The notes beneath the pieces are model-generated. The model was not told where the DNA came from and ran no database searches. It saw nothing but the letters and a program-made list of their open reading frames with translations. A stretch of 64,000 nucleotides of DNA from Physcia stellaris (lineage: Eukaryota; Ascomycota; Lecanoromycetes; Caliciales; Physciaceae), in assembly GCA_018902385.1 (NCBI GenBank), contig JABSSW010000004.1, positions 682,001 to 746,000 of the forward strand, written 5' to 3'. The translations under genes and the position numbers were made by a program. How positions within the stretch are numbered: the first letter of the stretch is position 1; every line of letters starts with the position of its first letter. Below are positions 2,465-28,499 of this stretch, in pieces.

Positions 2465-2653
2465 TGTAAGGCGCATGTCTAGGAAACAGATAGCATAACG
2501 AGAATATTTGATCTAGAAAGCAAATATGTACAGGAAATCGAATGCCAGAAGTAGATTGTGAGCGTCAAGCTCTAGATCGCGCTAATTTTCATATGGATTT
2601 TCGCTGATAAGATAAGGCTCTATCAACGCTTCTTTCAGAGCATGCTCGTAACA
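2465..2653 (+). repeat. Left LTR (189 bp)
   Basis: Starts TGTAAGGCGC and ends CTCGTAACA. Relative to the right LTR it has accumulated 19 C-to-T or G-to-A changes, 17 of them in CpC/GpG context and 2 in CpT/ApG, so it is the heavily mutated partner. Confidence 0.9.
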
Positions 2654-3673
2654 CTATTCTTTTCTTTTTTTCAAGCTTCGTCCCGAAGCGACTATTCATT
2701 TCTTTTATCGGTCGGCATTGCGAAGAAATTCATTGACTGTGATTCAGGTATTTGTTTGATCATGGTTGGCGCTGGAAGTTTCATAGCAAATGCGATAGGC
2801 GTGAAGAAGTAAATCGAAAGCAGAAGATGTGCGAGAAGAAGAAAAATATATATATGCGGCGAGAATGAGAATTTTGTGAAAATTTTGTTGAGAATCTTGA
2901 TCTCGATCGATGCGGGAGATATTTGCAGATTAATATGATGAAACGGTCGATTTCTCAGGACGGAACAGAAGCAGCAGAGCGGGATCGATTTCGCAGACGT
3001 ATGCTGTTTCAAATTTCTCGGATTTGAGCTTTTCGAGTTCTTATTAATCGGCGCGTTCTGATTGGCTGCAGGCTCGGAAGCAAAAAAAGTCGATTGACGC
3101 AGAATGTTGGTTCATGACGGCGGGCAGACGATTGCGAAAAAAAAAGACTGAATTGAGTGCGTCACAGATCCGGATTGACTGCTGTTTTTCATCTTTTGAT
3201 GTCATTTGCTCTCGTATCGCTGCTATGATGTAATAAATTCACTTTCGTTGAGGGTATTGGCTGCGAAGATGTAAAGAATCGAAGAAAACAACGCATGCGC
3301 TTTTGATGTCATTGAAGCAGACTCACTAATCGTTGTAGCGGACTCACTGAGTGTCGTTGAAGCAGACAGACACTAAAACAAACGGAGCGAAGCGAAGCGT
3401 GATTCAAATTTTTTTGTTTGAGATTTTGAATGATTGTTTGTTGATTTGAGATAAATGGTTTGATATGTGTGTGTGACTTTTATTTCTCTTTTTATCAAGC
3501 GGTGTCTCAACGCTTCAAAGAAATGATTATTGTAGAAATCATTCGAGAGTAAATGAGCTGACTGGCTCGAGAAAGCATGAAGGTCGTTTATTGACGAATT
3601 GATAGAGTTTTCACTCCTCATCACGATGAGTTGACTGATTTTCAGAACAAGAAGATCAACGATTGACTGTCAT

Positions 3674-3852
3674 TATCGCTGACTCACGATCATTCTCGCA
3701 GACTCACGATGCGTCAAGTGGAAGTGAAATTCAATCATCGTTTTCAAAGGGAGAACTTTTTCTTATCGCAGATTCACGATCATTCTCGCTGGCTCACGAT
3801 GCGCATAGTGAAAGTGAAATTCAATCATCGTCTTCAAAGAAAGAACTTCAGA
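3674..3852 (+). repeat. Tandem duplication, about 90-bp unit, two copies
   Basis: Units start at 3674 and 3764 with TATCGC(T/A)GA(C/T)TCACGATC and share GTGAAATTCAATCATCG further on. It lies inside the first LTR element. No coding function is evident. Confidence 0.75.
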
Positions 3853-3870
3853 CTGACGATTTTCTTTTGA

Positions 3871-4057
3871 CTCGCGTATTTTTACGAGTGATTTGACGAT
3901 TTTTTTTTGAACACTCGCGTACCTCTACGAGCGATGAAGATTTTGTTTCTACTCGCTTCTCCTACGAGCAACTGGCGATTTTCTTTAATTACTCGCGTAT
4001 TTCTACGAGCATATCTGGCGATTTTATTTTGCTTATTCGCGTATCTCGACGAGCAAC
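3871..4057 (+). repeat. Five-copy tandem array of a 38-43 bp hairpin-forming unit
   Basis: Units start near 3871, 3914, 3952, 3992 and 4034. Each contains CTCGCGTA followed 4-6 bases later by (C)TACGAG, an imperfect inverted repeat able to form a small stem-loop, then a GGCGATTTT-like linker. Inside the first LTR element; could be a structural or packaging signal of the element, but that is only a guess. Confidence 0.75.
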
Positions 4058-4330
4058 TCACTTGTCGAAGCAAAACGTTTGACCGAATGTCAATTAGTCT
4101 CGCAAAATTCAGAGCGAGAAATCTGCTGTGCAAGAGGCAGTGAATCATCGTCACTGCGATTGATAGAGAGGTTTCGTGTTGAAAATGAAATCGTCACGAA
4201 ATTGGTCGAAGAGTTCGTGCTGAAAATGTGCAATCGTCACGAATTGAAACGATCTTGTTTCTTTTTATTCGTTGGTCGTCGCAACGAGTGTGAAGTTTAC
4301 ATCGTTCGTCACGATGGAGATCAAATATAA

Positions 4331-4519
4331 TGTAAGACGCATGCCTAGAAAACAGGTAGCATAACGAGGATATTTGATCTAGAAAGCAAATATGTACAGG
4401 AGACCGAATGCCAGAAGTAGGTTGTGGGCGCCAAGCCCTAGATCGCGCTAATCCCCATATGGACTTCCGCTGATAAGATAAGGCTCTACCAACGCTCCTC
4501 CCAGGGCATGCTCGTAACA
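4331..4519 (+). repeat. Right LTR (189 bp)
   Basis: Starts TGTAAGACGC and ends CTCGTAACA. It keeps most CpC and GpG sites; only two positions look mutated relative to the left LTR, both GpG to GpA. Followed by ATAAT, then by the remaining 25 bp of the duplicated unit. Confidence 0.9.
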
Positions 4520-4549
4520 ATAATGAGCTTCGCAAAGTGCTTGATTTGG

Positions 4550-16459: not shown

Positions 16460-17069
16460 AAACACGGGTAAGCGTTTTATCAGATTGAGTGTATTGATGG
16501 CGATGCATGAGGCAAGATAGCATCACACCAGATCATGAAATAGTCATGATTCAATAATGTGAAGTCTTCGAGTAAGAATCTCTGTCTAATGTATCTCTAT
16601 CATTACAGATACGAAAAAAACTTGTTCATACTTGAAAATGTTCGACTCGACTGAGAAAAAAGAAATTACAACTCTAGTTTTGCAGTTGACATTGAACATA
16701 TTCAGATGTTGAAAACGACACTGAAAACACATTTTATGTCACAAATCAAATTTTTGAAATAATTCAACAACGAAACGTGATATTGATTCAGTTGACGCGT
16801 CATTTGAATCGTTTATTCTTTGCGCATCAATCAATGCGTAATTGAATATAATGAAAAAAACGTCATGATCGCAATTGAATAAAAAAATCAAAACATCAAC
16901 GAGCAAAAAACTTTGTTTTTGTGAACATTCGAGAATGCATTAAACGCATGAAAAATAAAAAAAATCGTCGCAAAAAATCGTTCAGAAATGATTTCAAACA
17001 TTCGTAATTTATTTTGAAAATTCACAGTTTTCGACAATCAATGAAAAATTCGTTAAACGAATCGATTTC

Positions 17070-18078
17070 ATGATCAATCAATTTCATAAAAATCAAATCA
17101 AAATGAAAAAAAACAACGTCGTCATTCGTCGCGACATTACAAAATTGATTATTCATTCAAATTTTTTTTTTCGCGAACAAAATGAATTTTCGCAATTGAA
17201 CAATCGTCGTCGTTGCGTCGTCAATATCACGAATTACGATCAACAAAAATACGAAAATCATTGTTCGTTTCAACGACGCGAACAAAAAACAACAATTGAG
17301 CAAATACGAAACGAGACGCATAGTCAAAAACATCAACGTTTGCATTGAAAAAAAAAACATACAAACGAAATATATTCGTGCGATCAAAAAATTTTTTAAC
17401 GAGAATTTTGCGATACACGCGATAAACGCAAAAAAAATTGAAAAATTGAAAAATTGAAAAACAACAATGCGTGAACGACGATTTTCGACAGAAAAACAAA
17501 AACGATCGTTCAAACTCACGCGATTATGATGAACGAAATAAAAATCAAAAAATTCAATTTAACGACGATCGAAAAAAAAAACGACGATGCGTAAAATCAA
17601 AAAAAAAACGAAAACGTGAAAAAATTGAAAAAAATGAAAATTTTGTACGTGTTTTGAAAAAACAAACTCACGACAAAACAATTGTATTATATCATGATCA
17701 TCGAAATCATCATTTCGAAAATGAAAAACGCGATGCTGAATAACAACATTATAATTGACGAGAAATTGAAAATTTGTTCGATGTTTAACAAAATCTGCAA
17801 AACGATTCAATGTTATAAATGTCATCAACACGAGCACATTACAATTCAATGCACGAAAAAAAAAATGCGATTATTGCGCAAAAACGCATGTTACAAAAAA
17901 GAAAAAATGTGTACAAAACTACAAAATCAAATGTTGTGTGTGCGAAAAAGCACACAATTCATGAAAAAAAATGCAAAAAAAACAGAAAAAAATTGAACGT
18001 ATCAAATATCAATTCTCGATCACGTCGACGAAATTTTCGAAACAAAAATAACAATACATCGTCGTTAACAAAACGATA
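17070..18078 (+). pseudogene. LINE ORF1 (gag-like) remnant with CCHC zinc knuckles
   Basis: Nucleic-acid-binding ORF1 protein of a LINE, broken. At 17811-17852 one frame reads CYKCHQHEHITIQC, a perfect CX2CX4HX4C knuckle. Just downstream, in a shifted frame, CDYCAKTH and CCVCEKAHNS follow, as in the triple-knuckle arrays of Tad1-like ORF1 proteins. The frame change shows at least one indel. Upstream sequence from about 17070 is lysine/asparagine-rich, as expected after massive G-to-A mutation of the coding strand. Boundaries are approximate. Confidence 0.75.
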
Positions 18079-18429
18079 GCGAAATCAATGAACACGTTCG
18101 ATAACAATTCAAAATCGATGATAAAAACAAAAAAATTCAATCAATTGAAAAATATACAACGACGAGAAATCGAAAAAACTCAAACGAAAAAAACATTATT
18201 CGACGAAATCAACAAACGCAAAAAAACAAACATTTATGCATCGACAATATCAATGATTCAATCGATTGAAACATTGATATTTTCACAAATTTTATCGAAT
18301 TCGCAAAAATTTCGAGATAAACAAAACGACAAATCGACGTCATCGATTAAAAACAAAAAATCGTCAACGATCAAAAAAAGAATCGAAAAATCAAAAAAAA
18401 AACAGTTTTTTCATCACGATTAATCGAAC

Positions 18430-21400
18430 ATTTCTAAAAAACGTTACGAACAAACATACGAAATTCAATTCATCGAAAAAATATTAAAAAACGATATATT
18501 GTCGATATTACAATACAACGTCAACAACTCGAAAATTCAAATCATGATATCGTTGTTCGAAACGAAAAGCATCGCAAAATACGACGTTTTGATCATTCAA
18601 AAATTTTGAAAAAACTCATTTCAATTCACGACAAATAACAAATTTTCGCAACATTTTGAATTTTTGTACATGTCAAACGCGATTACGAAAATGTGTTTGT
18701 TCGTCAACAAAAAAATAACGAAAACGATTTACACTCACACGTTTCACAACAAAAATTTGATTTCGTTGAAAATGCAAACGACGAACAACAAAATTATCAA
18801 CATTCACAACATGTACAATTCATGCAAAAAAAACGAAAACAACAATACGTTATTCAATTTCAAAAAAACGTTGCAAAAAAATTCAAAAAAAAACATATCG
18901 TCGTAAAAAATTTCAATTTACATCATTTCAATTGAAACAAACAACATGTGAAAACAAACGTCGACGCATATGAATTCATTGTTACAATAAAAAAATACAA
19001 ATTGAAAAAAGTCATATCAATCGAATTGATTATGTGAAACAAACACAAAAACGAAAACACAATTGATTTCACATACACGACGTCGTTATTCAAAAACAAT
19101 ATTATCGAAACGAACATCGACAAAAAAATGAACAATCATTCGAATCATTGTTCGATTAAAACGATATTGAATTTACGAACGAGAACGATCGAAACAAAAC
19201 GCACAAAAATTTGAAAAAAAACGAACGTAAACGTTTTTCGAAAAAAATTACAAATCAAAATAACGAACAATGAAACGTTTTCGTCATCGAAAAAAATATT
19301 TAACAATCGAGCAAACGAAATAAATAAACAAATAAAAAAATTAATGAAAACAATTTAAAAAATCATCGAAATATTCATTTCGCTCAACAAATCGAACGTA
19401 TATTCGAAATCGAAATTTATTAAAAAATGCAAACAAATCTCGAAAACGACAAAAACGATCAAAAAAAAATATCAACGCAAAAACGAAATCGAAAAATTGT
19501 GAATATCATATAAAAAAATCAAAAATTATTTGAATCGCGTCGTCGTCAAAATCATAAAAATACAATACAAAAAAAAATCGAAAAAAAGTGTAATACATCA
19601 AATAATATGTAAAAAATTTGCAAATAAACAAAAAACAAAATTTCGAAAAAAATTTGTATGTCAATTTTACACGATCATTCATTCATGTTATCAAAAACGA
19701 ATTTAGTCAAAAAAACAATCATATTTTTGAAAAAGTTTTTTTCGTCGTCGTCAACGATAATTCTAACGAATATACAGAAAACTACATACAATCAAAATTT
19801 GAAATTGAAAAACATACAATTTCACGAAATAATCAAAATTATTGCGATACAAATTTTCAACAAAATTTCAAAGCACGACGATATCATCAACAAAATATTG
19901 AAATGAATCAACGACATTATAACATTTCATTTACAACGCATATTTAACGTTAATTTGAACGCAAAATATTGTTTTAAACATTTTCGTAAATCGATTACAA
20001 TCGCATTGCGCAAATTAAACAAAAAAACGTATTCATTCGCATTTTCATATCGATCGATAATTTTGTTGAATACAATAAACAAAATCATGAAATTCATATT
20101 GATCAAACGTATTAATTATTTGACGAAAACGTACAATTTGTTGTCGCGTACGCATTTCGAAATCAAAAAAAAAATATATTCACAAAACACGTTTTGCATT
20201 ACATGATGAAACGCATACATTCGATTTGAAATAAAAAAAAATAATCGTGATTATGTTGTTGAACGTAATGAAAATATTCGACAACATAACACGACAAAAA
20301 TTATTACACAATTTGAAAATGAAACGATTCGACGAAAAATTGATGCGATTCATTGATTTTTTTTTGAACAATAAAATGACGATATTAAAAACAGACGAAT
20401 ACGATATCGAATGATTGAAAATTTTTGTAAACATTTCACAAAACTCATTCATGTTATCGATTTTTTTTTTTTTTTACAACGCATCATTATTGAAAAAATT
20501 GAAACGAAAAAATATTTTTGCGAGCGATTTCGTCGATGACGTGAAATTGATGAACGAAAATCAAATCATTGAAAAATGCAACGAGAAAATAATTAAAACA
20601 CACGAGAAAATTTGCGTATCGTGAACATTGAAACACGAAATGAAATTCGCATCGTTCAAATATCAATTCATTTATTTCAATCGAAAAAAAAAACACAAAC
20701 GTTATCGAATTTATACGATTGCTCGAATTCAATCAAATGATAAAAACGAAAAAAAAAATGAAATATCTAAAAATTATTATGAACACGAAATTCAATTGAA
20801 AAACGCACGTGAATCAAAACAAAACGAAAACATTGAAATCGATAAAAACATTGCGAAATTTCAACGATACAACATGAAATGCAAAATTTTCACGAATGAA
20901 ACAAATGATGCACGCGATTTTCATTTCACAATTCATATACGCATGTTCGATGTGATACACGTCGACAAAAAAAAATTATTTCAAAAAAATAGTCAAAAGT
21001 TTGACGAGCGTGCAATATCAAATCGAAAAAATTATAACAAAAACATACAAAATAACGTCGAAAAAAACGTTCAACATCGAAATCAATTCAATGTCAATGT
21101 ATTTGCGATTGAACAAACTCATCAACGCGACGACAATAAAATTGATCACAAATTCGACGTACGAAACGATCATAAAAAATCGTTTCATCAAAAAATCGAA
21201 ATGCGTTAATTTATTGAAAAAATTAATGAATAGATTCGAACGCAATACGAGCATCAAAACAAAAAATATGAAAAAAATAATTTCATTCGCGACGTCGTCA
21301 TGATGAACATCGTCGCGCGTACGTATCAATAAAAACAAAAAAAAAATCGAAAAAAATCACAAAAAACAATTCGAATCGTATTCAGTCAATTACATTTACA

Positions 21401-21950
21401 TCGACGAAAATGACATCGACGATAAAATAAAAATCGCAACGATTTCGTCAAAAACGAATTTAACAACGTCAAAAACATATTTGAAATTCATAACGTCATA
21501 CACAATGTATTCGACGAAATTGTACGAAATCATTTTGACAAAAATCATGAAATTACATTCGTTTATCGAAAAAAAAAAATCGAAATTTGTCATTTGCATC
21601 GATAATCAGACAACGATATTTGCGATTTACAATTCGAAAATCAATTCGAATCAATATTTGATAAAATGAATAGTATAATTGATTGACGATTTACGACGTC
21701 AAAACATCGAAATGAAATTGCATTGAATATCGATTCACGTTGACATCGAAAACAATGAAAAAACGAACGTTACGATCAAACAAATCACGAAATGAAAATT
21801 GAAAAATCAAAAAAATAAACGAAAAAAAATGAATACGAATCAAATTGTTTCGCAAACACAATTGATGAAAATGTTGAAAAACGCGATCAAAATCACAATG
21901 AACAAAAAAATGCAACATCAATGAATCAACGAATGAAAAAATTGCGATAA
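18430..21950 (+). pseudogene. LINE ORF2 remnant: endonuclease, reverse transcriptase, RNase H
   Basis: Polyprotein that would cut target DNA and copy the LINE RNA; here dead. Near 18505 ILQYNVNNSK and, further on, KYDVLIIQ mark an APE-like endonuclease. At 19955-20206 the segment with YRSIILLNTINKIMK and RINYLTKTYNLL matches the start of LINE reverse transcriptases, and 20526-20543 encodes DFVDDV, the remnant of the catalytic YxDD box with both aspartates kept. Near 21389 YIYIDEND and near 21596 CIDNQTTIFAI are RNase H motifs. Several stop codons and frame changes intervene. Conservation of CpA-, CpG- and TpG-containing codons alongside loss of CpC/CpT ones reflects the mutation bias. Confidence 0.85.
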
Positions 21951-22048
21951 AAACAAAACGTTATATTCGATAATAACGAAATCGAGCAAATCGATGTTAA
22001 AATTACACGACAAATTCAACAAAAAATTCAACGCAATTGCAATACAAT

Positions 22049-22339
22049 TGTAAAACTCAAGAAGTGTAACATCAAAGATGTATAGCAGAAACGATTGTAT
22101 GACTAGACTAATAATTGCAAAGTTAACTATCTTACAAATTTTTGTTTATATAATCAATTAATTTGCTCAATCGTACACATATTTCGAATCATATTCGAAA
22201 GTATGAATTTATTGTATTGAATCGAAAATCTGTTGTTGATTTAATCAAACTGATTTTCTCGATGATCGAACTGTTTGATATAATTTTATCGAGATTCGAC
22301 TCGCAATGTCTCGATGATTTGAATTTTGAGTATTTTACA
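22049..22339 (+). repeat. Left LTR of the nested element (291 bp)
   Basis: Differs from the right LTR at 33 positions by my count, all transitions; 28 are in CpT/ApG context, 2 in CpC/GpG, 3 in CpA/TpG. No length difference. Confidence 0.9.
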
Positions 22340-23657
22340 TGCGCTTCTTTTTTAGCATCGAAATCTTTTGAGATGATTTTCTTTCATATGTTTTGAGCAG
22401 AAATTCTGAGTTTTCGTCTTTGAAATTTGAAAAATCGCTGTAATCGCGATTTTCGCATTTGATTTGAAAAATCACTGTGATCGTGATTTTCGCATCGAAT
22501 ATCATTTTATTCGATTTCTATCAGTTTGCATTAAAAATCTGAAAATCATTTTCGTGAATGATTCAAAAAAAGCATGATTTGATGACTCGAACTGTTTGTT
22601 GTTTTCAGTATCGAGAACTTGATTTCGTACAATTCACGATTTTCGATATGATGACTGACAACTAACTGAATGACAGTGAAATTTGAATTCGAGTTCTTTT
22701 TTACTTTTTTATTTTTTTACATTTTACATCAGAATCGATGAGTTGTTCGAAAAGATGATTAAACGCGAAAAACGTCGAATATTTTATTTTCATTGATAAA
22801 ATAGACGCGATCGCATTGAATACATCAGATTTCGAAAACTTTTTCGATTTTTTGTTTTCATCTCATCACGATACTCAATGCTCGATTAGATCGAACAACA
22901 GTTTCTGAAAGTGTTTTTGACACGATTCAGCTTTTCATGCGTCATAAATTCTAGGCAATAAGCAGCACAGAGTGATGACATGAGATCGTAATGTCGTGAT
23001 TTTGACATGACTATTCGAGTCAGTTGCTCTATCATAAGAAATGTATTTTACAGAACGTTTGAACGCGTCATGATATTAGATTGCTCTCGAGTCGATTGCA
23101 TCATCAGAAAGTTTGTATTGTCGTGCTGTTGATTTTCAAATACGTTTTCGTTACGAGTTTATCTTTGACTTTATTTTTTGTCAATGTCGATGTTTTGTAA
23201 GTTGATACGTGAGATTTTTAGCGAAGTTTTTTTTCTTCTTTTAGCTTGAACTTCTTTTTATTTTTGAAAGATCTCGACGAAGTTTTGAGCAATGATACTC
23301 GCGAGATTTTCTGCGATCACTACTTCGTGAATGCACAGTTCATGTTTTATTTTCTGATAGTTTGCTATTACATTCACGTAAAGTTAGTTCATATCAATTC
23401 TCGTTGAATTGAAACGATAGCTTGTCGAAAATTTTGAACGAGATACTTGATTGCAATTCTTTGATTCATGTTTGCATGTCTAGATTTTGTCAAGATGTTT
23501 TGCGCATTATATTTTGCAATTTACGATCGTGCTCGCATGCTAGAATATGACGAGATGTTTTGCTTTATTTGCATGCTCAGATCATGCTAGAATCGTGCTC
23601 GATGTCACGACGAATCATCTCGCTCGTTTGTTTTATTTGGTCAATTTATGCTCTCAG

Positions 23658-23922
23658 ATGTTTCTCATCAAAGTGCTCGATCAGAAATTGTTTGCATGAG
23701 CGACGTTTTTCTTTTTATGACTTTATTGAATCTGCAATACATGCGTATTGATTTTGAAATGCTTTTCATCAAAGTGTTTGATCAGAAATTGTTTCATACG
23801 AATGACGTTTTTCTTTTTATAATTTTATTCGGTCTGCAATACATTCGTATTGATTTTGAGATGTTTCTCATCAGAGTGCTCGATCAGGAGTTGTTTCACA
23901 CGGATGACGTTTTCTTCTTGTT
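23658..23922 (+). repeat. Tandem repeat, about 101-bp unit, 2.6 copies
   Basis: Units begin at 23658, 23759 and 23861 with ATG(T/C)TT(C/T)TCATCA and share a GACGTTTT(T)CTT segment and CTGCAATACAT(G/T)CGTATTG. They lie in the interior of the nested LTR element. The copies differ by transitions. Confidence 0.8.
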
Positions 23923-26099
23923 GTCAATGCGAGTGTGATCATATCAGAAGTAATTAATTTTTGTCTCATTTAGAAACGCGCACGAGATTTACGACAGCGA
24001 ACGAATCAGCTCGACAAGAATGTCAATGATTTTATCGTCATGTCTATTTTATTTCAGATTCTTGATATGCTTTTGCTCAATCATCTATTGATCAGACTCG
24101 AGAATTCGCGCACTATCAGTATTATTATATTATATTCATCGACGATCACGTCTGATGCACAATCGAGAACAGAACGAGATCATTTCGAGAAACTAGTTTC
24201 TCGTTGTCAAAAGTCGATCGAATTCTTTATTTTTTTTTGAAGATCACTCGAGCACGGAATACTTTTCTCAGCTGAAGATTTTTTGTAGAACAAAGTTTTT
24301 TGATTTGATTTTTGCATCGCTGCTTGAATCGCATCGAAATGACTTGAAAAGTCATTATAATCGTGATTTTCGCATTTAGCAGACTCGAATTGATCGAGAC
24401 GTTTGCAGAGATCGTCGCAAAACGTCAAACTGACGATTGTTTTTGAATTTTCTCTTTCAGTGATTTTTGATTCGCATGTCGTGTTTGCTGAGATTTCGAT
24501 GATACTATGATTTAAAATAGAATTTATTGCTTTGTTCTTGGCATCGATTTTCACGTGAACGATTTAGTCGAATCGAACTGTTATGACATAAATGTTTTCA
24601 AAAACATTTCAAGAATGCGTTTCGTCGACGCGATTGATCATTTGCTTTAACTTCTTGATTTCGTTTTCTTTTTTTTTTTTTGTGAAACTCTGCTTTCGAT
24701 CTTCGATAGAGATAAGTTGTCTGAACTAGCTACTCGATATGCGTCTCGCTCGAAGTCGTGTTCTCGTCATGAAATACTCGTACGAATACAACAAAGATTT
24801 TATACTGATTATAGATAATAGAATCGACTGATTTTTTCGACTCGATGTGCTCGAAACGATTTATGATGAAGAGATTTTGCATTGCAGAATGTCAAGATCG
24901 ATATATTCACGTTGATTTTGCAATAATTGTATTCAAGACAGTTTCACGAAATCGATTGATTCAGACGAACTTCTAGAAACATAGACGACTGTTCTTGTTC
25001 GAGAGTTATACTCGTACGAAGCATACGTCAATGATTTGAATTGACTGATGTTTGAGATCGCAATCTCGTGACTAGAAATTTGAGACGAAACTGCTCGAAA
25101 TTCAGCAAAGACATTATTTCGAATTGATTTTTCTGTTGTAACGTCATGCCAGGATTTTTTGCGACAACGCTTGATGATAATGTCAGCAGAACTCGTCGCG
25201 AAAAGCTCATTATTGTTTGTTGTTTATTGAGATTTTCACTATGCGATGTGAACTTGCTCGAATGTGATCAACTCGTTCAATTTTTGTTCGTCTTTTTGCA
25301 GAACAGCATGAGTCGAAACGTCGACGATACAGTGTATTTTGATTGAGTTTTCGTTAATTTTATCGAACGGAAATTTTCTATCGCCGTTTGATTTTGAATG
25401 ACATTGTATTCATGCAATTCTGCAGTGACGTGCTCTTGTTGAAATCGTCACGTGATTTTTTGACAAAGAGATTTTGCTATGCTTTTATTGAGATCATCGT
25501 TCGATCAATTCTCGATGTTTCTAAATTTCGATTTGGAAGCGAGACGATCGTAACGATCGCTCTTGAATTTTTCAAATACGACTTGAGTATAGAAGATTCG
25601 TTGTGCATGAGAATTTCGACAAACTGCGCAAGCTTTTTCAATCGTCTTAACGTTGTTGATTTGTAATTATTGCTATGAGCAGTCGAGAGTTTGAAATGAT
25701 TGACGTTTGTCGCTAGAGACGTCAACGAGATCGAATGATTGAAGTTTTTATGTAGATTTCGCATTCGCGTCGAGATGATTTGCTTTTGAAGTTTTGCGTT
25801 GAGATTTTTTTTTGTAGCTTTTCGAACTCGAGTTCGCTTTCTAAATTGAACAATGCGTGATAATATGACAGTACAATCAGTTTGAATTGCGATACTCAGC
25901 TGTATTGTAGATTTTTCGTTTTCGATTTGCTTTTCGTTCAGATTCTTGTAAAATTGAATTCTCGTTCAGATCGAATGTCGAGGACGTAGCACGTTCAGTC
26001 GTTGAATGATTTGACTGCTAGATCGCTAGACTGCTAAACTGCTAGACTGATAGCTATACACGAGTGATGCTAATTTGATGATTATGATAGTTATTAGAA

Positions 26100-26390
26100 T
26101 GTAAGATTCAAGAGATGTGGCATCAGAGATGTATAGCAGAGACGATTGTATGACTAGATTAATAATTGCAAAGCTAATTATCTTACAGATCTTTGCTTAT
26201 ATAGTCAATTAATTTGCTCAATCGTACACATACTCCGAATCATATTCGAAAATATGAGTTTATTGTATTGAATCGAAAATCTGTTGTTGATTTGATCAAA
26301 TTGATCTTCTCGATGATCGAACTGCTTGATATAATTTTATCGAAATTCGATTCGCAGTGTTTCGATGATCTGAACTCTGAATGTCTTACA
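26100..26390 (+). repeat. Right LTR of the nested element (291 bp)
   Basis: Starts TGTAAGATTC and ends TGTCTTACA, followed by the ACAAT duplication and the resuming LINE sequence. Confidence 0.9.
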
Positions 26391-26870
26391 ACAATTTCGA
26401 ACGATTAAAATTGATTTGAAAACGTTTTTGTACAATAAAAAAACAATCGAAAATTTCTCGTGCTCGTGTAAACGTGACAAACAAACGATCAAATATGTGT
26501 TTTTCGAATGCAACAAATTGAAAAAATTTCGGAAAAAATTTTGAATCGACGAAATTCGAAAAACAAAATGAAAAAAGTTGAAATTGACGAACGTGTTGAT
26601 CAACTCGATTAATTTGAAAAAAACGACAACGTTAATAGAAAAATCAAAATTCATTGATTATTTAAAAATTTCATTCGAAAACGACGAGAAATAGCGAATG
26701 CGAAAAAAATGCACTAAAATGAAAAATTTCACACGAAAAGAAAGTTAGAAAAAATCATGAAAATAATGATGTTTGAAGTGATTTGCTCGAGCAAAAAAAC
26801 AAAACATCAAAAAATAAAAAAGTTTGTATAAAGTCAAAAATTTTCTAGAGGTGATTGGTTCGATTAGTTT
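26391..26870 (+). mobile_element. Decayed Tad1-like LINE, right part (ORF2 C-terminus and 3' end)
   Basis: After the nested element the A-rich LINE texture resumes. Near 26461 the sequence encodes CSCKRDKQTIKYVFFEC, matching the cysteine-rich region found at the end of fungal LINE ORF2 proteins, followed by FRKKF and basic segments. A-rich sequence fades out between about 26800 and 26900. The 3' boundary and any poly-A or short-repeat tail are unclear. Together with 16600-22048 it forms one element interrupted by the LTR insertion. Confidence 0.8.
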
Positions 26871-26899
26871 TAGTCGCATAACGAATTCCAGACGAGATC

Positions 26900-28499
26900 G
26901 ATTCGAGTGCTTAATGAACTAATCAATCAATGAGGACGACACTGAGGACCAGATTCTTCAATGAACCTTTCCCAATATACATATACAACAAAAAAGCTGT
27001 AGACTAACCGGTCTCTGCGTTGGAGACAGCTGTCCAATCCCAAAACATACCCAAGGTAGCGTCCAGTGCCCCTTTCTCAGCGAACGCCCGACCCCCTTTC
27101 TTTGCATGATCGAGAAACATTCTGCCTTTTTCCCCTCACGCAGTATCTTCCGTCTTGTTTCCAGCTCTCCTGCAATTTTGCGCTTCTGTGGTTCAGGTGT
27201 AGGAGGCGTGATAGGCGAAACAGACTATGCTTTAGGTGGAGGAGGCGTACGAGGCGAGATAGACGGAGCGGGCGGGAGACGTAAGGAGCGAAGAATGCGG
27301 AGCGACCCGTCCCACCACTGGGAATTTAAATGGTGGTAGGAGATGGGCGACAGGTTTAACTAGGCGGGTTTTGCGCCAGTAGCAGTTTGAATGCGCAGTC
27401 TGTTGGCAGGAAAGGAGGGCACGGAGAGAGGGTGTTAGATCTTTTCAATGACTCCGGTGGGGGCGGCAGGATCATATCTAGGGCCAAATAGCCTAGGCGA
27501 GGAGCGGTGTCTAGGATGCAGTCGGAGAGGGTTAGTCAACAGGTGGGTGAGGGATGGTCGGGGCTTACGTTGGCGGTGTCCTTATGCCGCGCGCTCAGCC
27601 TCCTTGCTTACTTCGGCCATACGTTTGATCTCCTCCCTGGAGGAACTTTAGGTCTGCCATTCGTCGGGCGATGATGTGCCGGGCGAGATCACACTGAGGC
27701 ATGCTGTCGTCCATGGCAGCTGCGGTAATGATAGGGCTGGTAACGGCGCACGTGAGGTCGTTGAGGTGCAAGTCCATGACATCGTTTGGTGAGAGCTATA
27801 GGAATATTACGATTGACCATCTTGAACGTGGGGTTAGGTGACTTATAGTTAATGTAGAGAAGACGGTGATTATCTGACAGGTGAGTGGTCGTCCAGCGTG
27901 TATATATGAAAGATCTTCATCAGGAAGAGAAAATGATGAACTAACACCAAGACATCCAATATGACAAGACACGTGGCCGTGGGTGGCCGTGGTAGGCGCA
28001 AAGCATACGAACACGGCATGAAGACGACATGGAGAACATCATTTTCTGATTCCATCCTAAGTCGGGTATTCGTAGATCTGTCCGTGTATCCTATGAAATA
28101 GCATCACTTACTACCAGAACCATGAGATAGAAACAAAGAGGAGTATATAGACATGCTGATGCTAGGATGTATCGTAGCTATGGCTGCTATCAGTGATAAG
28201 GTTCATCGTGTTCACGTAGTAGACACGATTCTCGCAGGAAAAGAAGAACAATTGGAAGTACCGCCGGGTGGATGTGTCAATGCGAGTGGACACCACCATG
28301 CCACCTTACTCCCAGCAATCGATATAAGACTGAAACAATGGGGAGAGCAGTATAAGTCCTCGAATCAAGAATCCACATTGAGGACTTCCACACCCGTACG
28401 CCATTTGCACTGGGGAATTTTTGATACCGCCGCCGCGTCCGAAACCGAAGGTCTGCTTACGCCAATAGCCTGAATTTACAGATGCTGCACGGAATATCT
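26900..28499. other. Gene-poor stretch with minus-strand coding-like fragments
   Basis: Normal base composition. On the minus strand, 27595-27774 encodes a 60-residue frame containing CDLARHIIARRMADLKFLQ, and about 27070-27220 encodes a basic, protein-like stretch (PQKRKIAGELETRRKILREG). An adjacent frame gives EEIKRMAEVSKEAERAA. I could not join these into one gene and recognise no family; they may be exons of a small intron-rich gene or a remnant. The right arm of the inverted repeat is at 27996-28124. The rest up to 28499 is presumably the SNX3 3' region. Confidence 0.35.
27996..28124 (-). repeat. Right arm of the inverted repeat bracketing the transposon block
   Basis: Reverse complement of this segment aligns with 16317-16459, with a 20-bp identical core (GACAGATCTACGAATACCCG) and several indels elsewhere. 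Normal base composition, unlike the DNA between the arms. Confidence 0.7.

Follow-up and report, generated by a model that had tools for sequence, protein, structure and literature searches.

Which cytosines does the agent that damaged this locus recognize? The locus lies in a window of 64,000 nucleotides (C4:682001-746000 of the 43.97-Mb assembly) from Physcia stellaris, a lichen-forming member of the Physciaceae (Caliciales) whose draft genome was obtained from an ascospore culture by nanopore and Illumina sequencing; the available sections of the genome paper contain no analysis of RIP context (PMC7513301). In Neurospora crassa the order of RIP targets is CpA>CpT>CpG>CpC, and in T. reesei CpA and CpG are about equal, followed by CpT>CpC (PMC5496416). 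An earlier note, made from the letters of the window, had claimed that two 189-bp LTRs at 2465-4519 record RIP-like mutation under a different rule, directed at CpC. The features on which our analysis rests are as follows.

2126-2464, no strand: AT-rich sequence containing two direct repeats of 129 bp, directly 5' of the LTR element
2460-2464, no strand: target-site duplication ATAAT, left copy, 5 bp (from the sequence)
2465-2653, forward strand: 5' LTR, 189 bp, the more damaged of the pair (LTR alignment and lightly damaged copies)
2654-4330, forward strand: internal region, CpC-depleted, no gene recognised (dinucleotide counts, frames and domain searches)
4331-4519, forward strand: 3' LTR, 189 bp, the less damaged (LTR alignment and lightly damaged copies)
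4520-4524, no strand: target-site duplication ATAAT, right copy, 5 bp (from the sequence)
16501-27000, no strand: repeat block under the same rule (dinucleotide counts; boundaries near 16.5 and 27.0 kb)

The element ends in TG...CA and is flanked on both sides by the ATAAT duplication, so that the two LTRs belong to a single insertion of about 2 kb. They are therefore true partners, as the argument of the earlier note demanded, and a mistaken pairing is excluded by the shared 5-bp duplication. Short LTRs, TG..CA ends, a 5-bp duplication and a short, gene-free internal part are features of a non-autonomous LTR retrotransposon, which we take to be TRIM-like. The internal region holds eight frames of at least 60 aa, all short, the longest of which (179 aa) extends beyond the element. 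No match to RVT_1, RVT_2 or DDE_1 fell within it among the best 150 of 527, the best 150 of 165 and 11 of 11 candidates scored, respectively, and an Rfam scan of the window returned no match. The direct repeats immediately upstream are 84% alike, and CpC is absent from 2201-2400.

Gapless re-alignment of the pair reproduced exactly the 21 differences that had been counted by eye, 21 of 189 sites, every one of them a transition. With C or G taken as the earlier state, the changes comprise 19 of 26 available CpC/GpG sites and two of 28 CpT/ApG sites, with none among the 22 CpA and 18 CpG sites; in a CCCC run before A, the three Cs followed by C are changed and the C preceding A is unchanged, again as first described. 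The concentration at CpC (19/26 compared with 2/68 in the other contexts; Fisher P = 3e-12) excludes chance as the source of the bias. At the differing sites, the 5' LTR carries T or A at 19 of 21 and the 3' LTR at two of 21. In 48 further LTR matches, one of the 21 sites (2639) shows G alone, and the other 20 each show both states. Since C is present in the lightly damaged copies, a T-to-C direction is excluded. Measured against those copies, the 5' LTR has changed at 18/27 CpC, 4/23 CpT, 0/16 CpA and 0/14 CpG sites, and the 3' LTR at 7/27 CpC and 1/23 CpT sites. The internal region is likewise poor in CC (O/E 0.38). Counted on both strands it retains 52 CC and 184 CT, whereas the undamaged internal parts of six sister elements hold 169-258 CC; this poverty is therefore not native to the element.

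We examined how far the rule extends across the LTR family. The LTR search of the genome gave 41 matches, from 40 scored of 105 candidates. Twenty-four fetched loci and the window made up a set of 25 elements, of which 22 yielded an LTR pair (L018, L037 and L039 gave none). Within these 22 pairs, which differ by 373 transitions and 65 transversions, changes affect 127/249 CpC and 207/515 CpT sites, compared with 12/481 CpA and 10/382 CpG sites. Eight lightly damaged LTR copies, taken as the earlier state, served as a reference. When 39 damaged copies were compared with this reference (itself changed at 10/206 CpC sites, and with 26 of 193 columns omitted where fewer than six of the eight copies agreed), changes were found at 755/991 CpC, 366/878 CpT, 34/523 CpG and 9/592 CpA sites. 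Every degree of damage, from undamaged to saturated, occurs among the LTR copies, and both strands are affected in each of 16 intermediate ones.

The order of targets is clearest in nine early copies, chosen by us from the 13 with a CpT fraction below 0.3 as those with a CpC fraction between 0.15 and 0.72. In these, 102/239 CpC, 28/204 CpT, 1/142 CpA and 0/122 CpG sites have changed, corresponding to about 0.56, 0.15, 0.007 and 0 hits per site. In young copies CpC was thus mutated roughly four times faster than CpT. These results support a refined rule under which a C is targeted when a pyrimidine follows it, with CpC preferred and CpT next. The claim that the target rule differs from the CpA preference of Neurospora held throughout: CpC and CpT are changed and CpA and CpG spared in the 22 LTR pairs, the 39 copies and 14 elements counted internally (below). 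The check that had been proposed, alignment of repeats by context, applied here to sampled repeats, did not find CpA dominant.

The preceding base has a weaker effect on CpC, with 68/76 ACC, 211/267 TCC, 264/362 GCC and 179/247 CCC sites changed. Within CCC runs the first C has changed less often than a CpC followed by a base other than C (178/266 and 407/505; P = 4e-5), as expected if a change in its neighbour leaves the first C in a CpT context, a comparison that cannot separate methylation first from direct deamination because rounds of damage accumulate over generations. The weight of the following base bears on a possible role for a cytidine deaminase of the AID/APOBEC type acting on transposon cDNA or single-stranded DNA. 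Clusters of C-to-T changes in retroelements are typical of such enzymes, but they read the base preceding the target, which here matters less than the base after it. DDE_1-type DNA transposons are damaged as well, two loci retaining a single CC each compared with 73 in an open one. We regard this source as very improbable. A search with PF08210 had no match in the Physcia genome, and since it had none in any control genome either, this null result is not evidence of absence.

The same rule could be read in a second part of the window. Within the block at 16501-27000, the left portion (16501-22000) has two CpC in 5.5 kb and little CpT, with CpA and CpG normal; at 22001-26500 there are 15 CpC and 408 CpT. 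Two stages of damage thus adjoin at about 22.0 kb, one without CpC and most CpT, the other without CpC only. The sequence at 18001-22000 is repeated, with 46 genome matches listed, including itself and five short ones. The damaged blocks end within 500 bp, and the gene DNA of the window, together with the regions of three DNMT genes, is normal (CC O/E 0.91 at 30-64 kb). These observations are relevant to ultraviolet or other dipyrimidine chemistry, which might be entertained because the targets are dipyrimidines and lichens are sun-exposed. Mutation by UV strikes the 3' C of TC and CC without being limited to repeats. In Physcia a 3' C that precedes a purine is retained, the damaged blocks of the window have an excess of TpC (O/E 1.27-1.60 at 16-26 kb) and gene DNA is normal, leaving such chemistry scarcely conceivable as the cause.

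The damage affects several transposon families. Of 30 RVT_1 loci examined, drawn from the best 150 of 527 candidates scored, 24 are AT-rich, with CC O/E of 0 to 0.43 and CG O/E of up to 4.33, and the other six are not. Across 62 aligned RVT locus pairs, which share loci and so are not independent and which leave out the undamaged pair L041/L042, changes affect 162/163 CpC, 5823/6769 CpT, 2307/23238 CpA and 1028/22366 CpG sites. The old RVT copies (L044-L069) show more change at CpA (10%) than at CpG (4.6%), an excess that may reflect either a weaker third target or plain ageing. L041 and L042, a 3.5-kb RVT_1 pair on contigs C5 and C12, are 95% identical, repeated yet undamaged, and their differences show none of this context bias. 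Of two RVT_2 loci, one with four TGA codons has 69 CC and an open one 104. The GC content of damaged repeats reaches a floor of about 0.24-0.27 (L050, L057, L061 and L065) because CpA and CpG persist, and CpG rises to about four times expectation.

We next consider where the damage starts and stops. For the window element and 13 of the 24 loci, 14 elements in all, internal dinucleotides were counted on both strands without alignment. CA and CG remain at 181-234 each throughout, whereas CC spans 0 to 258 and CT 63 to 221. At the extremes stand the undamaged internal part of L020 (CA 208, CC 258, CG 226, CT 203) and the saturated one of L014 (CA 202, CC 0, CG 212, CT 63). The undamaged internal parts belong to six of the 14 elements (L013, L015, L020, L021, L025 and L027), and in the flanks of most of these CC is near 0. 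Sister elements also carry 5-bp duplications: ACATT in L022, GACAA in L024 and CGTCA in L026. Given these six internal parts and the L041/L042 pair, all multi-copy and undamaged, repetition alone is insufficient for damage.

The LTR border is a frequent stopping point. The window element and L026 each have a damaged internal part, and their LTR beside an undamaged flank is spared. L013 and L025 show the reverse arrangement, with damaged LTRs (CpC changes at 9/27 and 20/27 sites in L013, 13/26 and 22/26 in L025) and damaged flanks around an undamaged internal part; in the 5' part of L025 the damage declines inward, from 5/6 through 7/11 to 1/9 by thirds. LTR and internal damage are thus uncoupled in these four elements, and LTR damage tracks the neighbouring flank. 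The damage is patchy, and spread from neighbours may add to repeat recognition; the pattern in L013 and L025 resembles spread from adjoining DNA no less than recognition of repeats.

This edge pattern lends more weight to an alternative in which CpC and CpT within silent, heterochromatic repeats and next to them are methylated by a DIM-2-type enzyme, the transitions then arising by deamination of 5-methylcytosine. A DIM-2-type gene is present, the damage is graded, and a leaning of DIM-2 towards CpT appears in the accessible part of a 2026 review (PMC13297926). Heterochromatin methylation accounts less readily for L015, L020, L021 and L027, each of which has a damaged flank on at least one side and yet at least one lightly damaged LTR, or for the capacity of CpC to be exhausted while changes at CpA and CpG remain few. 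We judge it rather unlikely overall. What the sequences record is a C-to-T process that acts on both strands of repeats and depends on the base at +1. It is of RIP type by its behaviour and lacks the CpA feature of the Neurospora form, making it a variant of RIP. The LTR pair therefore probably owes its differences to RIP-type damage under the rule C then pyrimidine, with CpC hit about four times as fast as CpT in young copies and with CpA and CpG essentially spared.

Such a rule predicts a particular fate for transposon proteins. A change of GpG to GpA turns TGG into TGA, the sole stop that the CpC rule produces directly; CpA-type RIP would predict TAA and TAG, from CAA and CAG. The stops in RVT_1 matches (286 in the best 150 of 527 candidates) comprise 250 TGA, 33 TAA and three TAG; those in RVT_2 matches (505 in 137 rows, from the best 150 of 165 scored) comprise 401 TGA, 101 TAA and three TAG; and those in DDE_1 matches (47 in 10 rows, with 11 of 11 candidates scored) comprise 44 TGA, three TAA and no TAG. 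The TAA share exceeds the prediction from CpC alone in RVT_2 (101/505), with 33/286 in RVT_1. Compared with open RT frames from the Physcia genome, 23 damaged RT loci retain Pro at 3/422 positions, Gly at 8/375 and Trp at 0/110, of which 82 are now stops, but His at 138/203, Asn at 190/266 and Gln at 161/328. Trp is the residue faced by 82 of the 151 stops that face one.

A search with two damaged RT frames yielded 571 relatives. Among the 120 listed, Pro and Gly are both absent from the aligned part in 85 and make up at most 5% of it in 111, figures favoured by query frames that are themselves damaged. Nearly all of the 120 are ENA entries, most of them on contigs only a few kb long, and evidently come from other assemblies; they do not establish the rule in other species. 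They do speak to the suspicion that the changes are an artefact of assembly or base-calling, such as the calling of modified cytosines as T from nanopore data. The assembly is indeed a nanopore and Illumina hybrid (PMC7513301). An artefact is nevertheless extremely improbable given the 85 Pro- and Gly-free relatives from what appear to be other assemblies, and given that every degree of damage, together with internal parts retaining 169-258 CC, is found within the same assembly.

We were interested in which enzyme might write these changes. A search for RID and DIM-2 homologues, which the earlier note had advised, was answered by a PF00145 profile search that found three genes, on contigs C5, C3 and C6. 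The C5 gene is of RID type, with an EQT motif and a recognition domain similar to those of other lichens; its product is 97% identical over 98% of the searched part to the P. stellaris hypothetical protein G7Y79_00005g016670, a complete RID of 932 aa. The C3 gene has a frame of 1064 aa, best matched in the PDB by 9bap, a DNA (cytosine-5-)-methyltransferase (E 2e-188), and is presumably of DIM-2 type. The C6 gene (L033 2407-4200), a second Masc1/RID-like gene that we call RID2, has a PF00145 match, an EET motif and the frame motifs PPCQ, EETFG, QNRRR and QIGNAVPP. RID2 looks intact because its two in-frame TGA codons fall in two short GT..AG introns, absent from a spliced Heterodermia relative. 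Its 74 listed relatives were restricted in protein size to 0.55-1.75 times 401 aa. The motif pattern used missed 53 of 194 proteins. In a tree of 34 of 105 EQT rows and all 37 others, an EET branch that includes Aspergillus and Talaromyces proteins separates from the EQT (RID) branch with support of 100/99.

Mechanistically, a DNMT1-superfamily enzyme of the RID or Masc1 type would read the +1 base, and cytosines in paired repeats would be converted during the sexual cycle over several or many rounds. The candidate writers are RID, RID2 with its divergent target-recognition domain and the DIM-2-type enzyme. The recognition domain of RID2 is shorter than that of RID, reading LIATGGG..NYHPDG in Heterodermia and NYYPDG in Physcia where RID has CITT.GGG..HPSG. 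From the general anatomy of C5-methylases, our guess is that this domain sets the target. We tentatively propose, as a possibility below an even chance, that in the Physciaceae an EET-type RID2 with a shortened and rewritten recognition domain became the RIP writer. The order CpC > CpT >> CpA, CpG would then be family-wide, leaving frames without Pro, Gly or Trp and RIP hidden from standard indices. As a sub-case of RIP-type damage, RID itself may be the writer, RID2 being unrelated and the shift residing in RID or a partner protein. The Physcia RID is complete and Rid1 is required for repeat RIP in Neurospora crosses (PMC12543289), but the recognition domain of the Physcia enzyme looks ordinary (ARCITTQGGGLIHPSGQRD, compared with ATCITTSGGGIIHPSGKRD in Usnea), which tells weakly against a reading that we find credible though short of probable.

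Comparison with known systems places the Physcia damage within the range of RIP and sets its specificity apart. It shares with N. crassa C-to-T change on both strands of repeats, graded copies and RID- and DIM-2-type genes, and differs in that CpA comes first there, whereas in Physcia CpC>CpT and CpA and CpG are spared. Ten fungal genomes are described, in the accessible text of Amselem 2015, as having CpA, CpT or CpG signatures; Magnaporthe, Botrytis and Sclerotinia share with Physcia a CpT target and a RID/Masc1-class gene, but there CpA joins CpT and CpC is unlisted in that text (PMC4352252). As excerpted in PMC2621366, the signature is CpG or TpCpG in Microbotryum and CpG/CpA in Aspergillus nidulans, illustrating that the dinucleotide rule varies between fungi, although the CpG targeted there is spared in Physcia. 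Alignments of RIP-capable fungi are dominated by CpT to TpT, with Lecanoromycetes unmentioned in the available main text (PMC7882544). In Ascobolus, MIP leaves repeats methylated without mutation, which does not match the sequence changes of the Physcia repeats.

Among lichen fungi, mutated repeats are described in Endocarpon (PMC3897900) and in Cladonia, where they are AT-rich (PMC12542154). The Endocarpon case rests on classical indices, with a TpA/ApT of 1.47 (PMC3897900) against 0.44 at 16501-27000 in Physcia; the accessible text on Cladonia leaves CpA unmentioned and names no dinucleotide (PMC12542154). The published RIP threshold, in the text available, is a TpA/ApT of at least 0.89 (PMC2621366). 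With a TpA/ApT of 0.44 and a composite index of -0.86, compared with 0.70 and -0.56 for the remainder of the window, the damaged block is scored by classical indices as RIP-negative and as farther from RIP than undamaged DNA. In the titles and abstract openings that open-access literature searches listed, we found no claim of CpC-first RIP, a scope outside which lie Clutterbuck's 2011 survey and PMC7493409, which mentions CpC.

A 2025 survey of 1,239 fungi concluded that a preference for CpA is common to RIP-like defences (PMC12543289), and the Physcia genome is a strong counter-example. As a natural variant in specificity, it lets one ask which part of the protein reads the +1 base. Neighbouring CpC targets offer a further opportunity, in that runs of C in one-generation progeny could show whether reading of the neighbour precedes or follows its own change. 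The rule also predicts a distinct outcome for proteins, with stops at tryptophan and the loss of proline and glycine. Finally, CpC-first damage is invisible to indices built on CpA, and further cases may be hidden in published genomes.
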